A stretch of DNA of 40,053 nucleotides from positions 1 through 40,053 of the IMG/VR virus record IMGVR_UViG_3300046507_000335, one strand, 5' to 3'. The notes under the pieces were generated by a model. That model saw nothing but the letters and a program-made list of their open reading frames with translations. It had not been told where the DNA came from and did no database searches. The stretch is from a virus. The position numbers and the translations under genes were made by a program. Numbering within the stretch: position 1 is the stretch's first letter; every line of letters begins with the position of its first letter. Shown in pieces: positions 4,493-39,459 of this stretch.

Positions 4493-5115
4493 TCAGGCCA
4501 CCTGAGCCGGCGGATTCATTGCCCAGTAAACGCGGGCGCAGGCCTCGGCATCGGGCCGGGCGCGGTGGCCGCCGACCAACTCTTCGCCGGTGAAGTGCAG
4601 CAGGGCCTCGGTTACGGTTGGCACCTTGTATTGGCCTGGGCGACCGAATCCGGCGGCGATCATCTTGGCGGTTGGCGGGCACTTGACGATGTTCTTGCTT
4701 GACTGGCAGGTGCAGTAACCGGGCGTGGCCTTGAAGGCGTCGGCCGCTTCCTTGCCGCGATAGCGCGATAGCGCGATAGCGCGATGCGCATAATCCGATC
4801 ATCGAAGGCAATGTTGTGGGCGATGCGCAGGCCGGCACGCTCATGAATCGCCATGAAGCCGTCCAGCGCTTCGGACTCGGGGATGCCCATGTCCATCGCC
4901 ATTTCGTTGGTGATGTCGTGGATGGCGGTCACTTCGGCGGGGATCACCCAGCCATCGGGGCGGACCATCGCCTCGAAGGAATCGACCAGGGTGCCGTCCG
5001 GGCTGTAGGCCAGGATGCAGATGTCCACCAGGTGGGGCTGGCGCGGGTCGTCGCTTGGGTCGCGAAACAGCGGCAGGCCAGTTGTCTCTGTGTCGTACGG
5101 GGTGAGCAGGTTCAT
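4493..5115 (-). pseudogene. DEDDh 3'-5' exonuclease, frameshifted by an extra 8-bp repeat unit
   Basis: The N-terminal part has ExoI motif D8/E10 (YDTETTGL) and ExoII motif HNIAFDD of DnaQ-like exonucleases. After the segment RIALSRYR the frame enters three copies of GCGATAGC (4757-4780) and the ORF stops at 4660 (151 aa). With two copies the frame continues as GKEAADAFKATPGYCTCQ and on to HRARPDAEACARVY, which holds the ExoIII His and Asp, ending at 4493 (204 aa). The present allele therefore lacks one catalytic motif and is expected to be inactive. GAGGAAAG precedes the ATG at 5115. Loss could be reversible by repeat slippage. Confidence 0.85.
4757..4785. repeat. 8-bp tandem repeat (3 units plus partial)
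   Basis: GCGATAGC occurs three times in tandem (4757-4764, 4765-4772, 4773-4780) followed by GCGAT. Two units keep the exonuclease reading frame open; three shift it. Copy number change by replication slippage would switch the gene off or on. Confidence 0.9.
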
Positions 5116-5189: not shown

Positions 5190-6002
5190 TTACGCCACGT
5201 CGTTCAGCTTCGCGATGACCTTGAACTTGTGCTCCAGCGCGGTGGCGCCCTCGGCTTCCAGCTCGATCACCTTGTTGTCGAGCAGGCGCATCAGCAGTAC
5301 GGCGGCCTGGTCGCTGTCGATAGCCATCCGGCTTTGAATCCACGCCGCGTCCAGGGTGCTGGTGACCTTGAGCACCACCAGCTGGGCGGCGTCTTCGTAG
5401 TTGTAATCGCCGAACTCTTTGCCGTTATTGGCGGGGCTCGCCGTGCCTATCAGGGCTTCCAGCTCATCGCTGGTGCCCAAGGGGTGTTCGCCGTCCGGCT
5501 CATCTGGCCCGGTGGGCGTCTGCCCGAACAGGCTGCCGGTGATGTCGCTCACATGCAGCGGCAAGTCCGGTTGGTCGCGGTCCGGCTGGATGAAGTCCAG
5601 GCCTTCGGCGTAGTCGTTGGGCGCCAGGACCAGCAGACACAGCCGGCCAGCAACATCGATGAGCCCGTGTCGGTTCGGGTCCTGGGCATCAATGGCAGCG
5701 GTTACCGTAATCGCCTTAGCCTTGAACTTGGCGTCTACGATCGTCACCGGGATGGTGTCAACGTTGCGGGAGCTGATAATGCTGATGGCGTTGGTGGCCG
5801 CCTTGTTGGCCGCTTCAGTCATGCGGTCGATGACTTCCTGCTGCTGGCCTTCGTTCAGGCTGTGATATGGGGCGCGGATGTTCTTCACTTCAAACAGGCC
5901 GGCCTCGACCATGTCATGCACCAGCAGTTCGTGCGCAAGGGCCGAAGCGGGTACGTCCAGCAGCTTGGCCCGCTCGATGATTGCCTTGTGTTCAGTCTTC
6001 AT
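5190..6002 (-). CDS. Early phage protein with FtsK-gamma-like C-terminal domain
   Basis: The 270-aa protein has an N-terminal helical region, a middle section with beta-like sequence (about 75-140), an acidic Pro/Gly-rich linker (about 150-185) and a C-terminal segment from about 200. The segment containing LVVLKVTSTLDAAWIQSRM then LLMRLLDNKVIELE resembles the winged-helix gamma domain that lets FtsK read chromosomal KOPS sites. The resemblance is by eye. No ATPase motor is present, so a DNA-binding role is more likely than translocation. It lies downstream of the recombination genes. Confidence 0.75.
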   Translation of the reverse strand: MKTEHKAIIERAKLLDVPASALAHELLVHDMVEAGLFEVKNIRAPYHSLNEGQQQEVIDRMTEAANKAATNAISIISSRNVDTIPVTIVDAKFKAKAITVTAAIDAQDPNRHGLIDVAGRLCLLVLAPNDYAEGLDFIQPDRDQPDLPLHVSDITGSLFGQTPTGPDEPDGEHPLGTSDELEALIGTASPANNGKEFGDYNYEDAAQLVVLKVTSTLDAAWIQSRMAIDSDQAAVLLMRLLDNKVIELEAEGATALEHKFKVIAKLNDVA

Positions 6003-6011
6003 GGGTAACCC

Positions 6012-6212
6012 TCAGTGTTTAGCGATGCGTTCGAGCTTCGACTGTTGCGCCGGGCTCAGGTTGGTGTGAGCGCCGTAGCGCTTGAAGCTGGCCCGGATGT
6101 TCTCGACGAATTCCAGTTCCCATTCCCCGCTGGCATGTAGCTCAGCGGAAACCAGGATCGCGGCGAACTCTTCGATGCTGTCGTAGACCTCAAGGACAGA
6201 TTGGGCGGCCAT
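6012..6212 (-). CDS. Small hypothetical phage protein (66 aa)
   Basis: The acidic N-terminal half (VLEVYDSIEEFAAILVSAEL) and a basic C-terminal end (NLSPAQQSKLERIAKH) suggest an all-helical protein. It sits between the YqaJ exonuclease and the FtsK-gamma-like protein, with short gaps to both, and probably belongs to the recombination segment. Function unknown. Confidence 0.75.
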   Translation of the reverse strand: MAAQSVLEVYDSIEEFAAILVSAELHASGEWELEFVENIRASFKRYGAHTNLSPAQQSKLERIAKH

Positions 6213-6227: not shown

Positions 6228-7916
6228 TCAGGCGGCAGCCTGGTTGCTCTGCACTGCCTGAATGTGGTTGACCAGAGCGCCGCACATGGCCGGGAAATCA
6301 ATCGCCCGGTACAGGCAGGCGCCTTGCTTGCGCTCAACCGCTTCGAAGCCCAGGGAGCGCAGGAAGTCTGCCGACAACGTGAAGCCCAGCATTGCGCCGA
6401 GTTCGCCAAGCTTGAGCCGCTGGCCGTCGTCCGTGGTTGCCTGGACAACTGCAGTTGGCTTGATTGGCGTTACAGCGACGGGGGCGGGCTCTTCCGGGGC
6501 CTTCTCGTCTGCCAGCGGCGCTTGCGTTAGCGCAGTCGTTGCGGCGGCAGCTTTCTGTGCTTCCTGCTGGCGCGTAGCCTCTGCCTGCTTTTTCTCTTCT
6601 GCCTGCCGCTGCGCCTCTTCTTCCTTGCGCTTCTTCTCGGCCTGTTCCTGATCATGCTCGTTGATGCGGACCTTGATCAGCGCCACCAGGTCATCGTTGG
6701 CCTTGAGCACCAGGTCTTGGGCGTCGTGGAACAGGAAGGCATGGTTGACGGCCAGCTCCCGCAGGCTGTTGAGGTTGAGGCGGATCTTGTCGGCGATGCT
6801 GCTGGCGTCAAGCTTTGCCCGGATCAGCTCGTTGTTGGCCGCTTCCTTCAGGCTGGAGACGTTCTTTTTGCCCTTGATGGCGCCGGCGAAGTCAGCGACC
6901 ACCCTCGGCATGCGGATCTTGCCGCCCAGGGTGCCGTTGATCTGGTCGATGTGGGTTTGCAGATCCTTGGCGGCTTCCATGACGATATCGCTACGGATGA
7001 ATTCCTTGCGGGTTGCGATCAGCTTCGTCAGCTCCAGGCGCTTGCGGCGCGTCTCGGCTGCAATGTCGTCTATCGCCTTGAACAGCACGTCGATGCTTTC
7101 GGTCTGGCTCAGCGCGTGTTCCTTCGCGGCCTTGAGCTTGTCTTCAACCTCACCGCACCACTTGACGGTCTCGTCGGCGTCGGCGAAGTCCTTGTCAGTG
7201 GACAGCTCAGTGTTGATGCTGCCGATCACCTTCATGGCGTGGGACTTGAAGGCATCCAGGTTGCTGGCGGTCACCATGCCAGTGACGTCAATGCGCAGCG
7301 CCGGCAGTTGGTCAGGCGCGGAACCGATCACCTCAACCTTGGCCTGTTGAACCTCGAAGGTGCCCAAGTCCTCTTCGAACTTGGCCCAGCCGGCAATCAG
7401 CTGCTCGGCGCGGCCATCGACGGGTCGGTATTCCATGTGCACAAAGTTCTCGGCGGTGCCATCGGAGCAAACGAAGATCACGCGTTCGGCGCCGCTCACC
7501 AGCAGTTGCTGCTCAAGCTGCCAGTAGTAGTGGGGCTCAAGCTCGCCAGCCTTAACTTGGGCGACCAAGTCCTGATTCCACAGCTTGTGTTCGAACAGCG
7601 TCTCGCCAAGCATTGTGGCGCCGTCCATGGAGGCCAGCAGGTTGCCGTCTGTGCCAACAATCGGGTACAGCTCTTCGCCGATCAGGGCCTCAACCAGGGG
7701 GCGGGCCAGCTCTTCGGTGGCGTGGCCCTTGTCGAAGATGCATTGCAGTTGGGGAGAAATATCCGGCGTTATGCCGGTTTTCTTCGCGGCCAACAGCTCG
7801 GTACGGGTTTGGTACTTCGATACCCCCTTCATCGCCGGCGCTTCGGAGGCGTTGAAGTGGTTGGCGCGCAGCGCGTGCCACTCGGCAGAGCCCTGGGCTA
7901 CGTTGTGAATGATCAT
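6228..7916 (-). CDS. YqaJ-family viral recombinase exonuclease with extra C-terminal domain
   Basis: Residues about 1-180 match the YqaJ/lambda-exonuclease fold: SAEWHALRANHFNASEAPAM at the start, GHATEELARPLVEALIGEE, the metal-binding Asp in ASMDGA, the ExK pair in EHKLW and a later Gln motif in WQLEQQLLVSGAE. The enzyme would digest one strand 5'-3' to make 3' tails for RecT. At 562 aa it is far longer than the nuclease domain. A helical region (about 200-420), a charged Glu/Lys/Gln coiled coil, a Pro/Ala linker and a small C-terminal domain (LGFTLSADFLRSLGFEAVER) follow. The recT stop overlaps its start as ATGA. Confidence 0.9.
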   Translation of the reverse strand: MIIHNVAQGSAEWHALRANHFNASEAPAMKGVSKYQTRTELLAAKKTGITPDISPQLQCIFDKGHATEELARPLVEALIGEELYPIVGTDGNLLASMDGATMLGETLFEHKLWNQDLVAQVKAGELEPHYYWQLEQQLLVSGAERVIFVCSDGTAENFVHMEYRPVDGRAEQLIAGWAKFEEDLGTFEVQQAKVEVIGSAPDQLPALRIDVTGMVTASNLDAFKSHAMKVIGSINTELSTDKDFADADETVKWCGEVEDKLKAAKEHALSQTESIDVLFKAIDDIAAETRRKRLELTKLIATRKEFIRSDIVMEAAKDLQTHIDQINGTLGGKIRMPRVVADFAGAIKGKKNVSSLKEAANNELIRAKLDASSIADKIRLNLNSLRELAVNHAFLFHDAQDLVLKANDDLVALIKVRINEHDQEQAEKKRKEEEAQRQAEEKKQAEATRQQEAQKAAAATTALTQAPLADEKAPEEPAPVAVTPIKPTAVVQATTDDGQRLKLGELGAMLGFTLSADFLRSLGFEAVERKQGACLYRAIDFPAMCGALVNHIQAVQSNQAAA

Positions 7917-8803
7917 GCGGTTACTCCTTCGAGAGGCTTCAGCTGATTGATGGTTTCGGTCTGCTCAGGCGTGAGCACGTACTTGCTGGAGATCGTCCCG
8001 ATTACGGCTTCGGGGGTGGTCCGCTTCGACTCAATGCCGGCGCGCCACTTGGGCAGGTTCTCGGTGAGCTTGTCGTCGGGGTAGGCGGGCAGAGCCTTGG
8101 GCTCGGTGTCGCGGATTGGCGAAACATCGCGAATTGGTTGTCCGTATTCCTCAACCTCATCCGGGCTGTAAACGCCAAGAATCACGTCAGGGCAGTACAG
8201 GCGCGACCAGCGCTTGACAGCGAGGTACGACAGTTGTTGGCGTGGGTCATCAGCCCATAGGCCGCTGTTGCGTGTCCGTGCCTGCGCCAACAGCAGCTCA
8301 ATGACGCGGGGCTCATCTTCACCACGGAATGTCGCCCAGACCTTTACGCCGAGACCTTCCTCGTCGCTCATCTTCCAGCCAGGAACGCGGTATTCCCCTT
8401 TCTCACCTTTCCGGATTTCAAACTTGCCGATCACCTTCGACCAATCGCCGTACCACTCGTAATGCAATCGGTCTTTGACCGGCGCCCGACTGGTGATGAC
8501 CGCGTTGATAAGCTGGGCCTCGTAGCCGAGCACGCCGTTCACCTGGTGGGTTTTCTGGGCAACGGCGAAGGGGTTCATGCCCCATTGCATCGACTGCATG
8601 ATCACCGCAAGGCAGTCCGCCGGGTTTCCGTTGAAGTGCTTCGGCACCGTGGCGCGCCCGGTAGCCATCAGATCGGCGAGGCGCATCATCTTGTCGAGGC
8701 TGTCACCGTCCAGCACCAGGGAGCTGGTGCTTATGGATGGATGTGGAAGGACATTGAGGTTTTGTTCTTGCGCAGTCGGCGCCAGGGTCGTTGTCTGGCT
8801 CAT
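7913..8803 (-). CDS. recT: RecT-family single-strand annealing protein
   Basis: The 296-aa protein has the RecT core: PADCLAVIMQSMQWGMNPF, VNGVLGYEAQLINAVI, and later QLSYLAVKRWSRLYCPDVI. RecT coats the 3' single strands made by the partner exonuclease and anneals them to homologous DNA, often at replication forks. It is coupled to the downstream exonuclease through ATGA (7913-7916) and to the upstream small gene through ATGA (8800-8803). Together the pair forms a Red-like recombination module. Confidence 0.92.
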   Translation of the reverse strand: MSQTTTLAPTAQEQNLNVLPHPSISTSSLVLDGDSLDKMMRLADLMATGRATVPKHFNGNPADCLAVIMQSMQWGMNPFAVAQKTHQVNGVLGYEAQLINAVITSRAPVKDRLHYEWYGDWSKVIGKFEIRKGEKGEYRVPGWKMSDEEGLGVKVWATFRGEDEPRVIELLLAQARTRNSGLWADDPRQQLSYLAVKRWSRLYCPDVILGVYSPDEVEEYGQPIRDVSPIRDTEPKALPAYPDDKLTENLPKWRAGIESKRTTPEAVIGTISSKYVLTPEQTETINQLKPLEGVTA

Positions 8804-12663: not shown

Positions 12664-13512
12664 GTGGACTGGTTCCGGATGTACGGCGAGTTTGCCACCG
12701 ACCCCAAAGTGCAGATGATGAGCGAGGCAGATCAACGCCGCTTCGTCATGCTGTTATGCCTGCGTTGCAGTAACGACGATGTAACGTTACATGAAACAGA
12801 AATCGCGTTTCAGCTCCGTATCAGTAACGAGGAGTGGGCAACCTCGAAAGCCCTGTTTCTTGCGAAAGGGCTCATTGATGGAGACTGCCAACCGGTCGCA
12901 TGGAACAAGCGCCAATTCGTCTCCGACTCAAGCAGGGCAAGGGTTGCAGCCCATCGCGCAAAGAAGAAACAGGAAGGTAACGTTACTGTAACGCCACCAG
13001 ATACAGATACAGATACAGATAAGCCTATTGATGGTATTGCCCGCGAAGGTCGTTTCCCGATGCCGCTCGATGGCTGGGGCGTTGACCACAAATCCTTCAA
13101 GGCTGTCGCCTTCAAAAATTCGGTACCGACCTCAGCGCTAACGCCAGAGATCCTAGCCGCGTTCACCTCGTACTGGCATGCCCGGCCCGAGAAAGAGCAA
13201 TCCCAGGCCCAATGGGAATTCCAGCTCGTACAACACCTGAACAATCTCATTCAACGCGCCAAAGCCAGCGGGAGCACCGCCAATGGATACGCTCGACCTG
13301 AAAACACTGCCGAAGGCCAAACCGGCCGTGGTCCCGAAGCAAATCAACGGCGTCCTCGACAGGGCTCAAGGTCAGCTGTCGACCAAGTCCGAGACGCCAT
13401 TGCCGAGCGAAAAGCCCGAGAAGCTCTCGCAAGCCATGATGGACAAGCTCTGGCTCAAGATGACGGAGATGTACGGCCATCGCTGGACGGCGAATTTCGG
13501 CGTATCAGCTGA
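12664..13512 (+). CDS. Replication initiation protein, O/DnaT-like
   Basis: Translation starts at GTG 12664, with GGAGG (12652-12656) eight bases before. Residues about 1-100 form a winged-helix origin-binding domain (WFRMYGEFATDPKVQMMSEA at the start). A short Asp-Thr repeat linker (PPDTDTDTDK) from four CAGATA hexamers follows. The segment 130-200 (MPLDGWGVDHKSFKAVAFKN to QAQWEFQLVQHLNNL) matches the DnaT-like domain that recruits the helicase loader, and the end DDGDVRPSLDGEFRRIS is a usual ending of this phage family. The last 230 bases are also the start of gene P in another frame. Candidate origin iterons lie inside the gene. Confidence 0.88.
   Translation: MDWFRMYGEFATDPKVQMMSEADQRRFVMLLCLRCSNDDVTLHETEIAFQLRISNEEWATSKALFLAKGLIDGDCQPVAWNKRQFVSDSSRARVAAHRAKKKQEGNVTVTPPDTDTDTDKPIDGIAREGRFPMPLDGWGVDHKSFKAVAFKNSVPTSALTPEILAAFTSYWHARPEKEQSQAQWEFQLVQHLNNLIQRAKASGSTANGYARPENTAEGQTGRGPEANQRRPRQGSRSAVDQVRDAIAERKAREALASHDGQALAQDDGDVRPSLDGEFRRIS
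12768..12993. promoter_or_regulatory. Candidate replication origin iterons in gene O
   Basis: The hexamer GTAACG occurs five times: at 12770, 12781, 12824, 12977 and 12988. Two are within the palindrome GTAACGTTAC (12781-12790 and 12977-12986) and two within CAGTAACG. Lambdoid origins lie inside the O gene as iterons bound by the O protein. The spacing here is irregular, so this is a candidate only. Confidence 0.4.
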
Positions 13513-36700: not shown

Positions 36701-36831
36701 CGGAGGTGCGCAGGGTGCCATGCAAGGATGCTAGGCACCCTGCGTCGTAGGCATGTATGGCTAAATCCAGTAAGATGCCGGGCGAATTACCCAATGTGCC
36801 CGCGCTTGTCTACCATGGATCGACCAGACTG

Positions 36832-38799
36832 ATGACCTCAAGTTTGTTACACCCAAAATATCGTCCCGATATCGACGGCCTTCGGGCCGTCGCAGTGTTG
36901 TCCGTAGTTTTATTCCATGCATTTCCAACTCTAATTCGCGGTGGCTTCATCGGGGTTGATATTTTTTTTGTAATATCCGGTTTTCTCATATCAACAATAA
37001 TTTTCAAAAGTCTTGACGCTGGAACTTTCAGCTTCGGCGAGTTTTATGCCCGCAGGATAAAACGAATATTTCCAGCGTTGCTGGTTGTTCTGGTGTTCTG
37101 CTATGTGTTCGGGTGGTATTCGTTGCTTGCGGATGAATATGCGCAACTTGGAAAGCACATAGTCTCGGGCGCTGGGTTCGTTTCAAACCTGACGCTTCTT
37201 CGCGAAGCTGGGTATTTCGATAGCTCGGCTGACACTAAACCACTGCTCCACCTGTGGAGCCTGGGTATTGAGGAACAGTTCTACCTGTTCTGGCCGGTCG
37301 CGGTATTCATTGCCTGGAGGCTTCGGTCCAGCCTCTGGATGCTGACCGCTGCTCTGTCTGTGGTGTTTTTCCTGCTGAACCTTTCCATGGTCGGCACCAA
37401 CCCAACGGCTACCTTCTATTCCCCCCACACCAGATTCTGGGAGCTGCTGCTTGGCAGTCTGTTGGCCTGGTGCACCATCTATCTTCCCGGCCGCGCAACC
37501 CTGACTGGAGCGACTTCATCCAACGTGCAATCACTGTTGGGCGTTGGGCTTCTTGCGGCGGGATTCCTTTTCATCACCAAGGACATTGGCTTCCCGGGCA
37601 AGTGGGCGCTCGTCCCGGTCATCGGCGCGGCCCTGATCATCGCCGCTGGCCCCTCTGCCTTCATCAACCGCTACGTGCTCTCCCACAAGGTCATGGTTTG
37701 GTTTGGCCTGATCAGCTTCCCGCTTTACCTGTGGCACTGGCCGATCCTGACGTTTGCAAGGATCATCGAGGGCGGAACGCCGAGTTCCGCGTTGCGAGCT
37801 GCAGCGGTTGTTGCCTCGATCCTCTTAGCGTGGGTTACCTATAAACTCATCGAGCAGCCTCTGCGAAAAAGTCAGGGGCAGTACAAGGCTGTTGGCCTGG
37901 TCGGCTTGATGTTCGCCGTTGGCCTGGTCGGCTTTGTCACCTATCGCAACGATGGCCTGGCCGGCCGAGAGTTTCCCAGTGAGGTCGCCGCGCACCTGGG
38001 CAGTGTCGCCGACTACAAAACAACCATGAAAATCTACGGCCTTGGCGAGTGCTTCATCGACTACGAACAAACCGTTGACGTTCTCGTCGCCAACAAGTGC
38101 GGCCAGCCTTCTGGAACCGGCCGGCGCCTGATCGTCTTCGGCGATTCCGAGGCGGCTCACCTCATGGGCGGTGTGAGAAAGGTTTATGCCGGCGCCGGCT
38201 TTGACATTGAGCAGTGGACCGGAACAAGTTGTCGCCCATTTGATTCCTTTATGCCGAATCCTGTCGGGCGCTGTGCCGATGTCTCTCGTCGCTTTGTGAC
38301 CAGTGTGCTGCCAACGCTTAAGGCTGGCGACGTTCTGATCGTCGGGTCAAGCTGGATAAGCTCTTTCAATGCACAAACCGGCGATGTGCTAATGAAGTCA
38401 CTGGACGGGCTCTTCGATGCTCTGAGCAAAACGCCGGCGACTGTCATCGTTTTTGGCAACACGCCCCACTTTTATGAGCACCCGGTTTCGTCGATTGCCA
38501 GGAAGATCAGCATTTCCCGAGATATGCGATATCTCAAGGCAGTGGACTACCAGCCATCGAACAAGATCATTGAAGACCTCGCATCAAAGCGGGGCGTCTT
38601 GTACTTCAATCCGTCATCGGGGCTTTGCAAGCCAGAAAACCCGCTTGAGTGCATAGCCTACGATGGAAAAAGCCTCACATTCTTTGACCGTGGACACATG
38701 TCCGAAGCCGGATCGGAGCGAGTCCTACAGAAGTTTTCCAAGGATGTGGACATAACAAACCCACTGATCGGGGCGCCAGCTATCTCTACGGTGGATTGA
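36832..38799 (+). CDS. O-antigen acetyltransferase (acyltransferase-3 plus SGNH)
   Basis: The protein (655 aa from this start) has an acyltransferase-3 domain with about ten membrane segments: YRPDIDGLRAVAVLSVVLFH (R18, H29), FIGVDIFFVISGFLISTII, LHLWSLGIEEQFYLFWPVAV. A periplasmic SGNH domain follows, with GDSEAAH (S439) and DRGHMSEAG (D619, H622). Such OafA/Oac-type enzymes carry acetyl groups across the membrane to O-antigen sugars. An alternative start at 36757 adds 25 residues. The 5' part (36.9-37.15 kb) is AT-rich while the rest is GC-rich. Next to attR, it is probably a lysogenic-conversion gene. Confidence 0.9.
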   Translation: MTSSLLHPKYRPDIDGLRAVAVLSVVLFHAFPTLIRGGFIGVDIFFVISGFLISTIIFKSLDAGTFSFGEFYARRIKRIFPALLVVLVFCYVFGWYSLLADEYAQLGKHIVSGAGFVSNLTLLREAGYFDSSADTKPLLHLWSLGIEEQFYLFWPVAVFIAWRLRSSLWMLTAALSVVFFLLNLSMVGTNPTATFYSPHTRFWELLLGSLLAWCTIYLPGRATLTGATSSNVQSLLGVGLLAAGFLFITKDIGFPGKWALVPVIGAALIIAAGPSAFINRYVLSHKVMVWFGLISFPLYLWHWPILTFARIIEGGTPSSALRAAAVVASILLAWVTYKLIEQPLRKSQGQYKAVGLVGLMFAVGLVGFVTYRNDGLAGREFPSEVAAHLGSVADYKTTMKIYGLGECFIDYEQTVDVLVANKCGQPSGTGRRLIVFGDSEAAHLMGGVRKVYAGAGFDIEQWTGTSCRPFDSFMPNPVGRCADVSRRFVTSVLPTLKAGDVLIVGSSWISSFNAQTGDVLMKSLDGLFDALSKTPATVIVFGNTPHFYEHPVSSIARKISISRDMRYLKAVDYQPSNKIIEDLASKRGVLYFNPSSGLCKPENPLECIAYDGKSLTFFDRGHMSEAGSERVLQKFSKDVDITNPLIGAPAISTVD

Positions 38800-38973: not shown

Positions 38974-39165
38974 CTATCCGAGCTGCGGACAGGTTTGCAG
39001 ATAGTCATCTACCGCCTCGCGAAAAGCCGCTTCCAGTTCGGCCACCGTTTGTCCTTCGTAACTCACCAGCGCCCTGATGAATAAGAGCTTTCCGAACAGG
39101 CATTTGTCCTGGGTGCTTGTTTCAATTGAGCCGACATAGCCCTTGTATTGCAATTGGCTGCTCAT
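38974..39165 (-). pseudogene. Truncated HicB-like antitoxin fragment
   Basis: The 63-aa product (QYKGYVGSIETSTQDKCLFG, then VAELEAAFREAVDDYL) matches the N-terminal HicB fold, but full HicB antitoxins are about 105-115 aa with a C-terminal ribbon-helix-helix or HTH DNA-binding domain, absent here. There is no hicA next to it. The fragment lies 24 bp outside attR, so the phage core itself does not cut it. An old deletion next to the tRNA, or a natural short form, are both possible. Confidence 0.65.
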
Positions 39166-39459
39166 GGAGTCTCGACCCTCACTGCTGAAGTCGTGGATAT
39201 TTATACGGGGTGAATCCCTGTGCATGGAACCGAGAAACTGTAACCGCGCACATACCGCGCTCCTCCATTGATTCCGGTTGTTGCACTGGCTTGCGTCTCT
39301 GTTAGGATTCCCCTGTCCCAAAAACCAACACCGTTGTTTTCAGATGATCCACGAATGGTTCTGAAGGCCAGGTGAACCGGGCTTCTAACGGCTTCCTGCG
39401 TCAGAGAGATCCTTGATGATCCAGATCCATCTTCCATTCCCCAGATCAACGAGAACGCC
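39166..39459. other. Intergenic region without recognised gene
   Basis: No coding signal stands out. A weak sigma-70-like promoter (TTGCAC at 39281, TAGGAT at 39303, 16-base gap) points toward the gene at 39460. GATCCA occurs in two nearby copies. Nothing else is seen. Confidence 0.4.

Follow-up and report, generated by a model that had tools for sequence, protein, structure and literature searches.

A third unit of an 8-bp repeat shifts the reading frame of a DnaQ-like exonuclease gene in a temperate Pseudomonas-type phage

The described genes closest to the one considered here are those for the annotated 3'-5' exonuclease of the Pseudomonas phages F116, H66 and LKA5, which belong to the same gene family (phrog_192) and show 70-72% DNA identity to it across about half of the query. 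Intact copies of phrog_192 contain all three Exo motifs, whereas the copy described here has a frameshift between ExoII and ExoIII, as well as a G67D substitution. More distantly, E. coli DNA polymerase III epsilon (DnaQ), ExoI, RNase T and TREX share their fold and the ExoI-III motifs with an intact relative, although the phage enzyme, of approximately 204 amino acids, is less than 22% identical to the solved DEDDh chains. A further point of comparison is provided by phase-variable (contingency) genes, in which the number of units in a short in-frame tandem repeat sets the reading frame, and which are recognized by a tandem repeat inside or adjoining the frame, by unit numbers that vary among relatives, by conservation of the repeat through selection and by switching that is reversible within a population. 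A literature search found nothing bearing on the exonuclease gene itself.

The disrupted gene (exo; 4493-5115, minus strand; phrog_192 'DNA polymerase exonuclease subunit', Pfam RNase_T PF00929) lies in a linear virus record of 40,053 bases, the whole of which is referred to here as the window. The window carries an integrase gene (289-1500), genes for a CI-like repressor, a CII-like regulator, RecT and a RecE-like protein, and podovirus-type structural genes. It is a temperate Pseudomonas-type phage, most closely related to Pseudomonas prophages and to IMG/VR contigs. Upstream of exo and co-directional with it on the minus strand are four open genes, encoding RecT (7913-8803), a RecE/YqaJ-like protein (6228-7916), a phrog_7521 protein (6012-6212) and a phrog_6576 protein (5190-6002). 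The last of these has 270 residues, compared with 330-358 in many relatives, and is a length variant with no evident frameshift, while the RecE-like gene of one relative (L035), which tblastn matches in two pieces that lie in different frames, has an apparent frameshift near residue 141. Elsewhere in the window, a perfect hexamer array of four CAGATA units (12998-13021), the unit length being a multiple of three, is found within a replication-initiation-like open reading frame (12664-13512), and the region near the right end contains an O-antigen acetylase-like gene (36757-38799), which possibly supports lysogenic conversion, and a gene for a HicB-like antitoxin (38974-39321).

The product of exo belongs to the DEDDh (DnaQ-like) 3'-5' exonuclease family, an identity proposed in the original prediction and borne out by the Exo motifs, by matches to phrog_192 and Pfam RNase_T (both in the N-terminal part of the protein, phrog_192 also in the C-terminal part) and by a fold search with an intact relative. 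The window copy contains the ExoI motif with its characteristic DxE, DTETTG (residues 8-13; 5077-5094, minus strand), which is invariant in the homologue alignment, and the ExoII motif with its catalytic Asp, AHNIAFDD (residues 99-106; 4798-4821, minus strand). The HxxxxD of ExoIII (HRARPD; 4550-4567, minus strand), which is in frame in the intact relatives, is absent from the same polypeptide and is found in the frame that follows the repeat. An RNase H-like exonuclease fold was obtained by AlphaFold for the intact protein of the relative L010, rather than for the truncated product (mean pLDDT 83, pTM 0.81), and Foldseek searches with this model returned DnaQ domains, ExoI, TREX and RNase T at E values of about 1e-7 to 1e-6. 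The frameshift maps to the helical region that follows ExoII, and would deprive the product of its final catalytic pair and of the C-terminal helices.

The frameshift arises at three perfect CTATCGCG units (4756-4779, minus strand), which correspond in the register of the original prediction to three GCGATAGC units at 4757-4780 in plus-strand numbering, and which amount to 3.75 copies at period 8 when a partial copy is included. Base composition does not account for the array: three-copy arrays of period 7, 8, 10 or 11 were absent from 40 Markov-simulated windows, and a match to the 16-bp two-unit pattern with no more than two mismatches is expected only 0.02 times, so that a chance origin of this kind was rejected. 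Furthermore, no period-8 array of at least three copies was found across 1.40 Mb of related loci. Direct reading of the frames agrees with the earlier claim that the three units reduce the product to 151 residues without ExoIII, and shows that ExoI and ExoII are retained. The shortened frame (4660-5115, minus strand) runs from the ATG at 5115 for 151 codons to a TGA stop (4662-4660), and its final 30-odd residues are out-of-frame sequence. Beyond the repeat, the original frame is open up to the stop at 4495-4493; what is left of the natural 3' end in that frame, ExoIII included, comprises 56 codons (4493-4663, minus strand), the first being an ATG that shares bases with the premature TGA (ATGA). 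The 151-residue product is predicted to be inactive because the frameshift removes the ExoIII His and Asp.

The effect of removing one unit is illustrated by the closest relative, L010 (86.7% DNA identity over 3.6 kb), in which the sequences flanking the array are identical to those of the window, exactly one unit fewer is present and exo is intact. Its 204 residues are the length that the original prediction had assigned to a two-unit gene, and the same length is found in L009. A perfect two-unit array occurs in only three relatives (L003, L010 and L013), all with an intact exo; the other close relatives encode the I-A-L-S-R-Y-R-G stretch mostly with different codons and have no array. Three units were seen in none of about 120 distinct exo homologues and, as an exact pattern, in none of 399 Pseudomonas genomes, while a gapped pattern that admitted anything from one to four units retrieved only two-unit contigs from the viral contigs. 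No relatives with one, three or four units were thus found among the homologues and viral contigs; searches likewise found no sibling isolates of the window's own phage, and plasmids yielded a single weak match to exo. Because relatives, viral contigs and the 399 Pseudomonas genomes give no three-unit copy, the third unit is private to this record and the repeat is not maintained. Since most relatives use other codons for the same residues, the repeat is best regarded as an accident of codon choice, not as a contingency locus that has been kept.

Among 123 distinct loci, exo is intact in 119. In addition to the window copy, L029 and L068 have C6 and C8, respectively, where relatives have an in-frame C7 at the KCPPT codons, about 435 bases into the gene; their products are shortened to 145-147 residues, with the frame beyond still clean, and these alleles could reflect either real slippage or homopolymer error. 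In the fourth case, L078, exo breaks off some 96 residues in, where it joins unrelated sequence with chromosomal-type genes alongside, indicating a prophage remnant or a mis-joined contig.

Until very recently, exo was under purifying selection on both sides of the array, as judged from Ka/Ks values between the window and L010 of 0.11 upstream and 0.08 downstream, with similar values in comparisons between intact copies. The downstream codons being still constrained, the event is recent, or else it is an assembly error, which would leave an identical signature of constraint. The recent date suggested originally is upheld by the downstream Ka/Ks and by the frame that remains clean to 4493. A further feature of the window copy is codon 67 (4915-4917, minus strand), which is GAC (Asp) in place of the GGC (Gly) of L010. 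This residue is Gly in 119 of 119 distinct homologues, and its aligned counterpart in E. coli epsilon is the glycine of HGI. Loss of a unit may therefore not restore activity: G67D, if harmful to the enzyme, may block restoration. The substitution fits weakly with a gene that is possibly no longer under constraint, but it could be neutral, and the window does not stand out within the exo family in its private changes: at columns that do not vary among 20 close relatives it has 2 such substitutions, versus 0-5 in the others.

These observations are probably explained by a recent slippage duplication of one 8-bp unit that would inactivate an accessory exonuclease of the RecE/RecT region, a reading to which the flanking match with L010, the intactness of nearly all homologues and the slippage-type frameshifts of L029 and L068 lend support. 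The main rival, which we consider unlikely, is a sequencing or assembly artefact, in which case exo would be intact in the phage itself, with two units, the third having been added in the contig. The array is indeed a perfect short tandem repeat, three units occur in no other record, the rest of exo looks constrained on either side, and the other window genes that were checked match their families without interruption. However, a short read can span an array of approximately 30 bp, and short-read assemblers rarely add a unit; G67D would in addition call for a second error, unless it has nothing to do with the third unit. Phase variation, proposed in the original prediction, would have frequent changes in unit number toggle the exonuclease on and off. 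An in-frame tandem 8-bp array is of a type prone to slippage, and one unit more or less toggles the frame, as in contingency loci. Nevertheless, the proposal found no support and is judged improbable: unit number does not vary among relatives (all three perfect arrays have two units), the repeat is not conserved, three units are few for a contingency locus, and G67D may prevent restoration. Nor do all relatives have at least three units out of frame, a finding named originally as counting against a switch; when the relatives were counted, none had three.

It is also scarcely credible that the enzyme is split or rescued, with ribosomes reinitiating at the ATG at 4663 to give a separate 56-residue ExoIII piece, or with a -1 frameshift giving some full-length product. 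The direct overlap of the premature TGA with this ATG, and the fact that the shift needed is -1, are compatible with such schemes, but the conserved Met-Ile codons of the intact gene are enough to generate the ATGA, the ATG lacks a purine-rich ribosome site ahead of it, and some 30 residues would be lost from the fold or exchanged for others. Programmed frameshifting was rejected, no slippery X XXY YYZ heptamer having been found between the repeat and the stop. That short repeats lying between ExoII and ExoIII (the 8-bp units here, the C7 tract in L029 and L068) repeatedly slip and knock out exo, with loss or on/off switching favoured in prophages, is very improbable. Broken copies account for 4 of the 123 exo loci, window included, versus 1 of 134 neighbouring genes (phrog_6576 0/57, recE 1/46, recT 0/10, integrase 0/21), an excess that is not significant (Fisher P 0.20), and a disruption hotspot was accordingly rejected. 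The commoner breakage of exo is suggestive at most, and homopolymer errors could explain two of the cases.

Under the slippage duplication that we favour, the ancestor would have had two 8-bp units by chance of codon choice for I-A-L-S-R-Y-R-G, one of which replication slippage would have duplicated; the 8-bp gain would then have shifted the frame and ended the product after 151 codons, ahead of the ExoIII His and Asp, and the loss would be tolerated since the enzyme is presumed to be accessory. The finding is real but probably represents ordinary gene damage, and its lesson is that relatives must differ in unit number before a tandem repeat together with a frameshift amounts to a contingency locus. 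Recurrent loss of exo in prophages, if true, would suggest that lysogeny can do without the enzyme or bears a cost from it.
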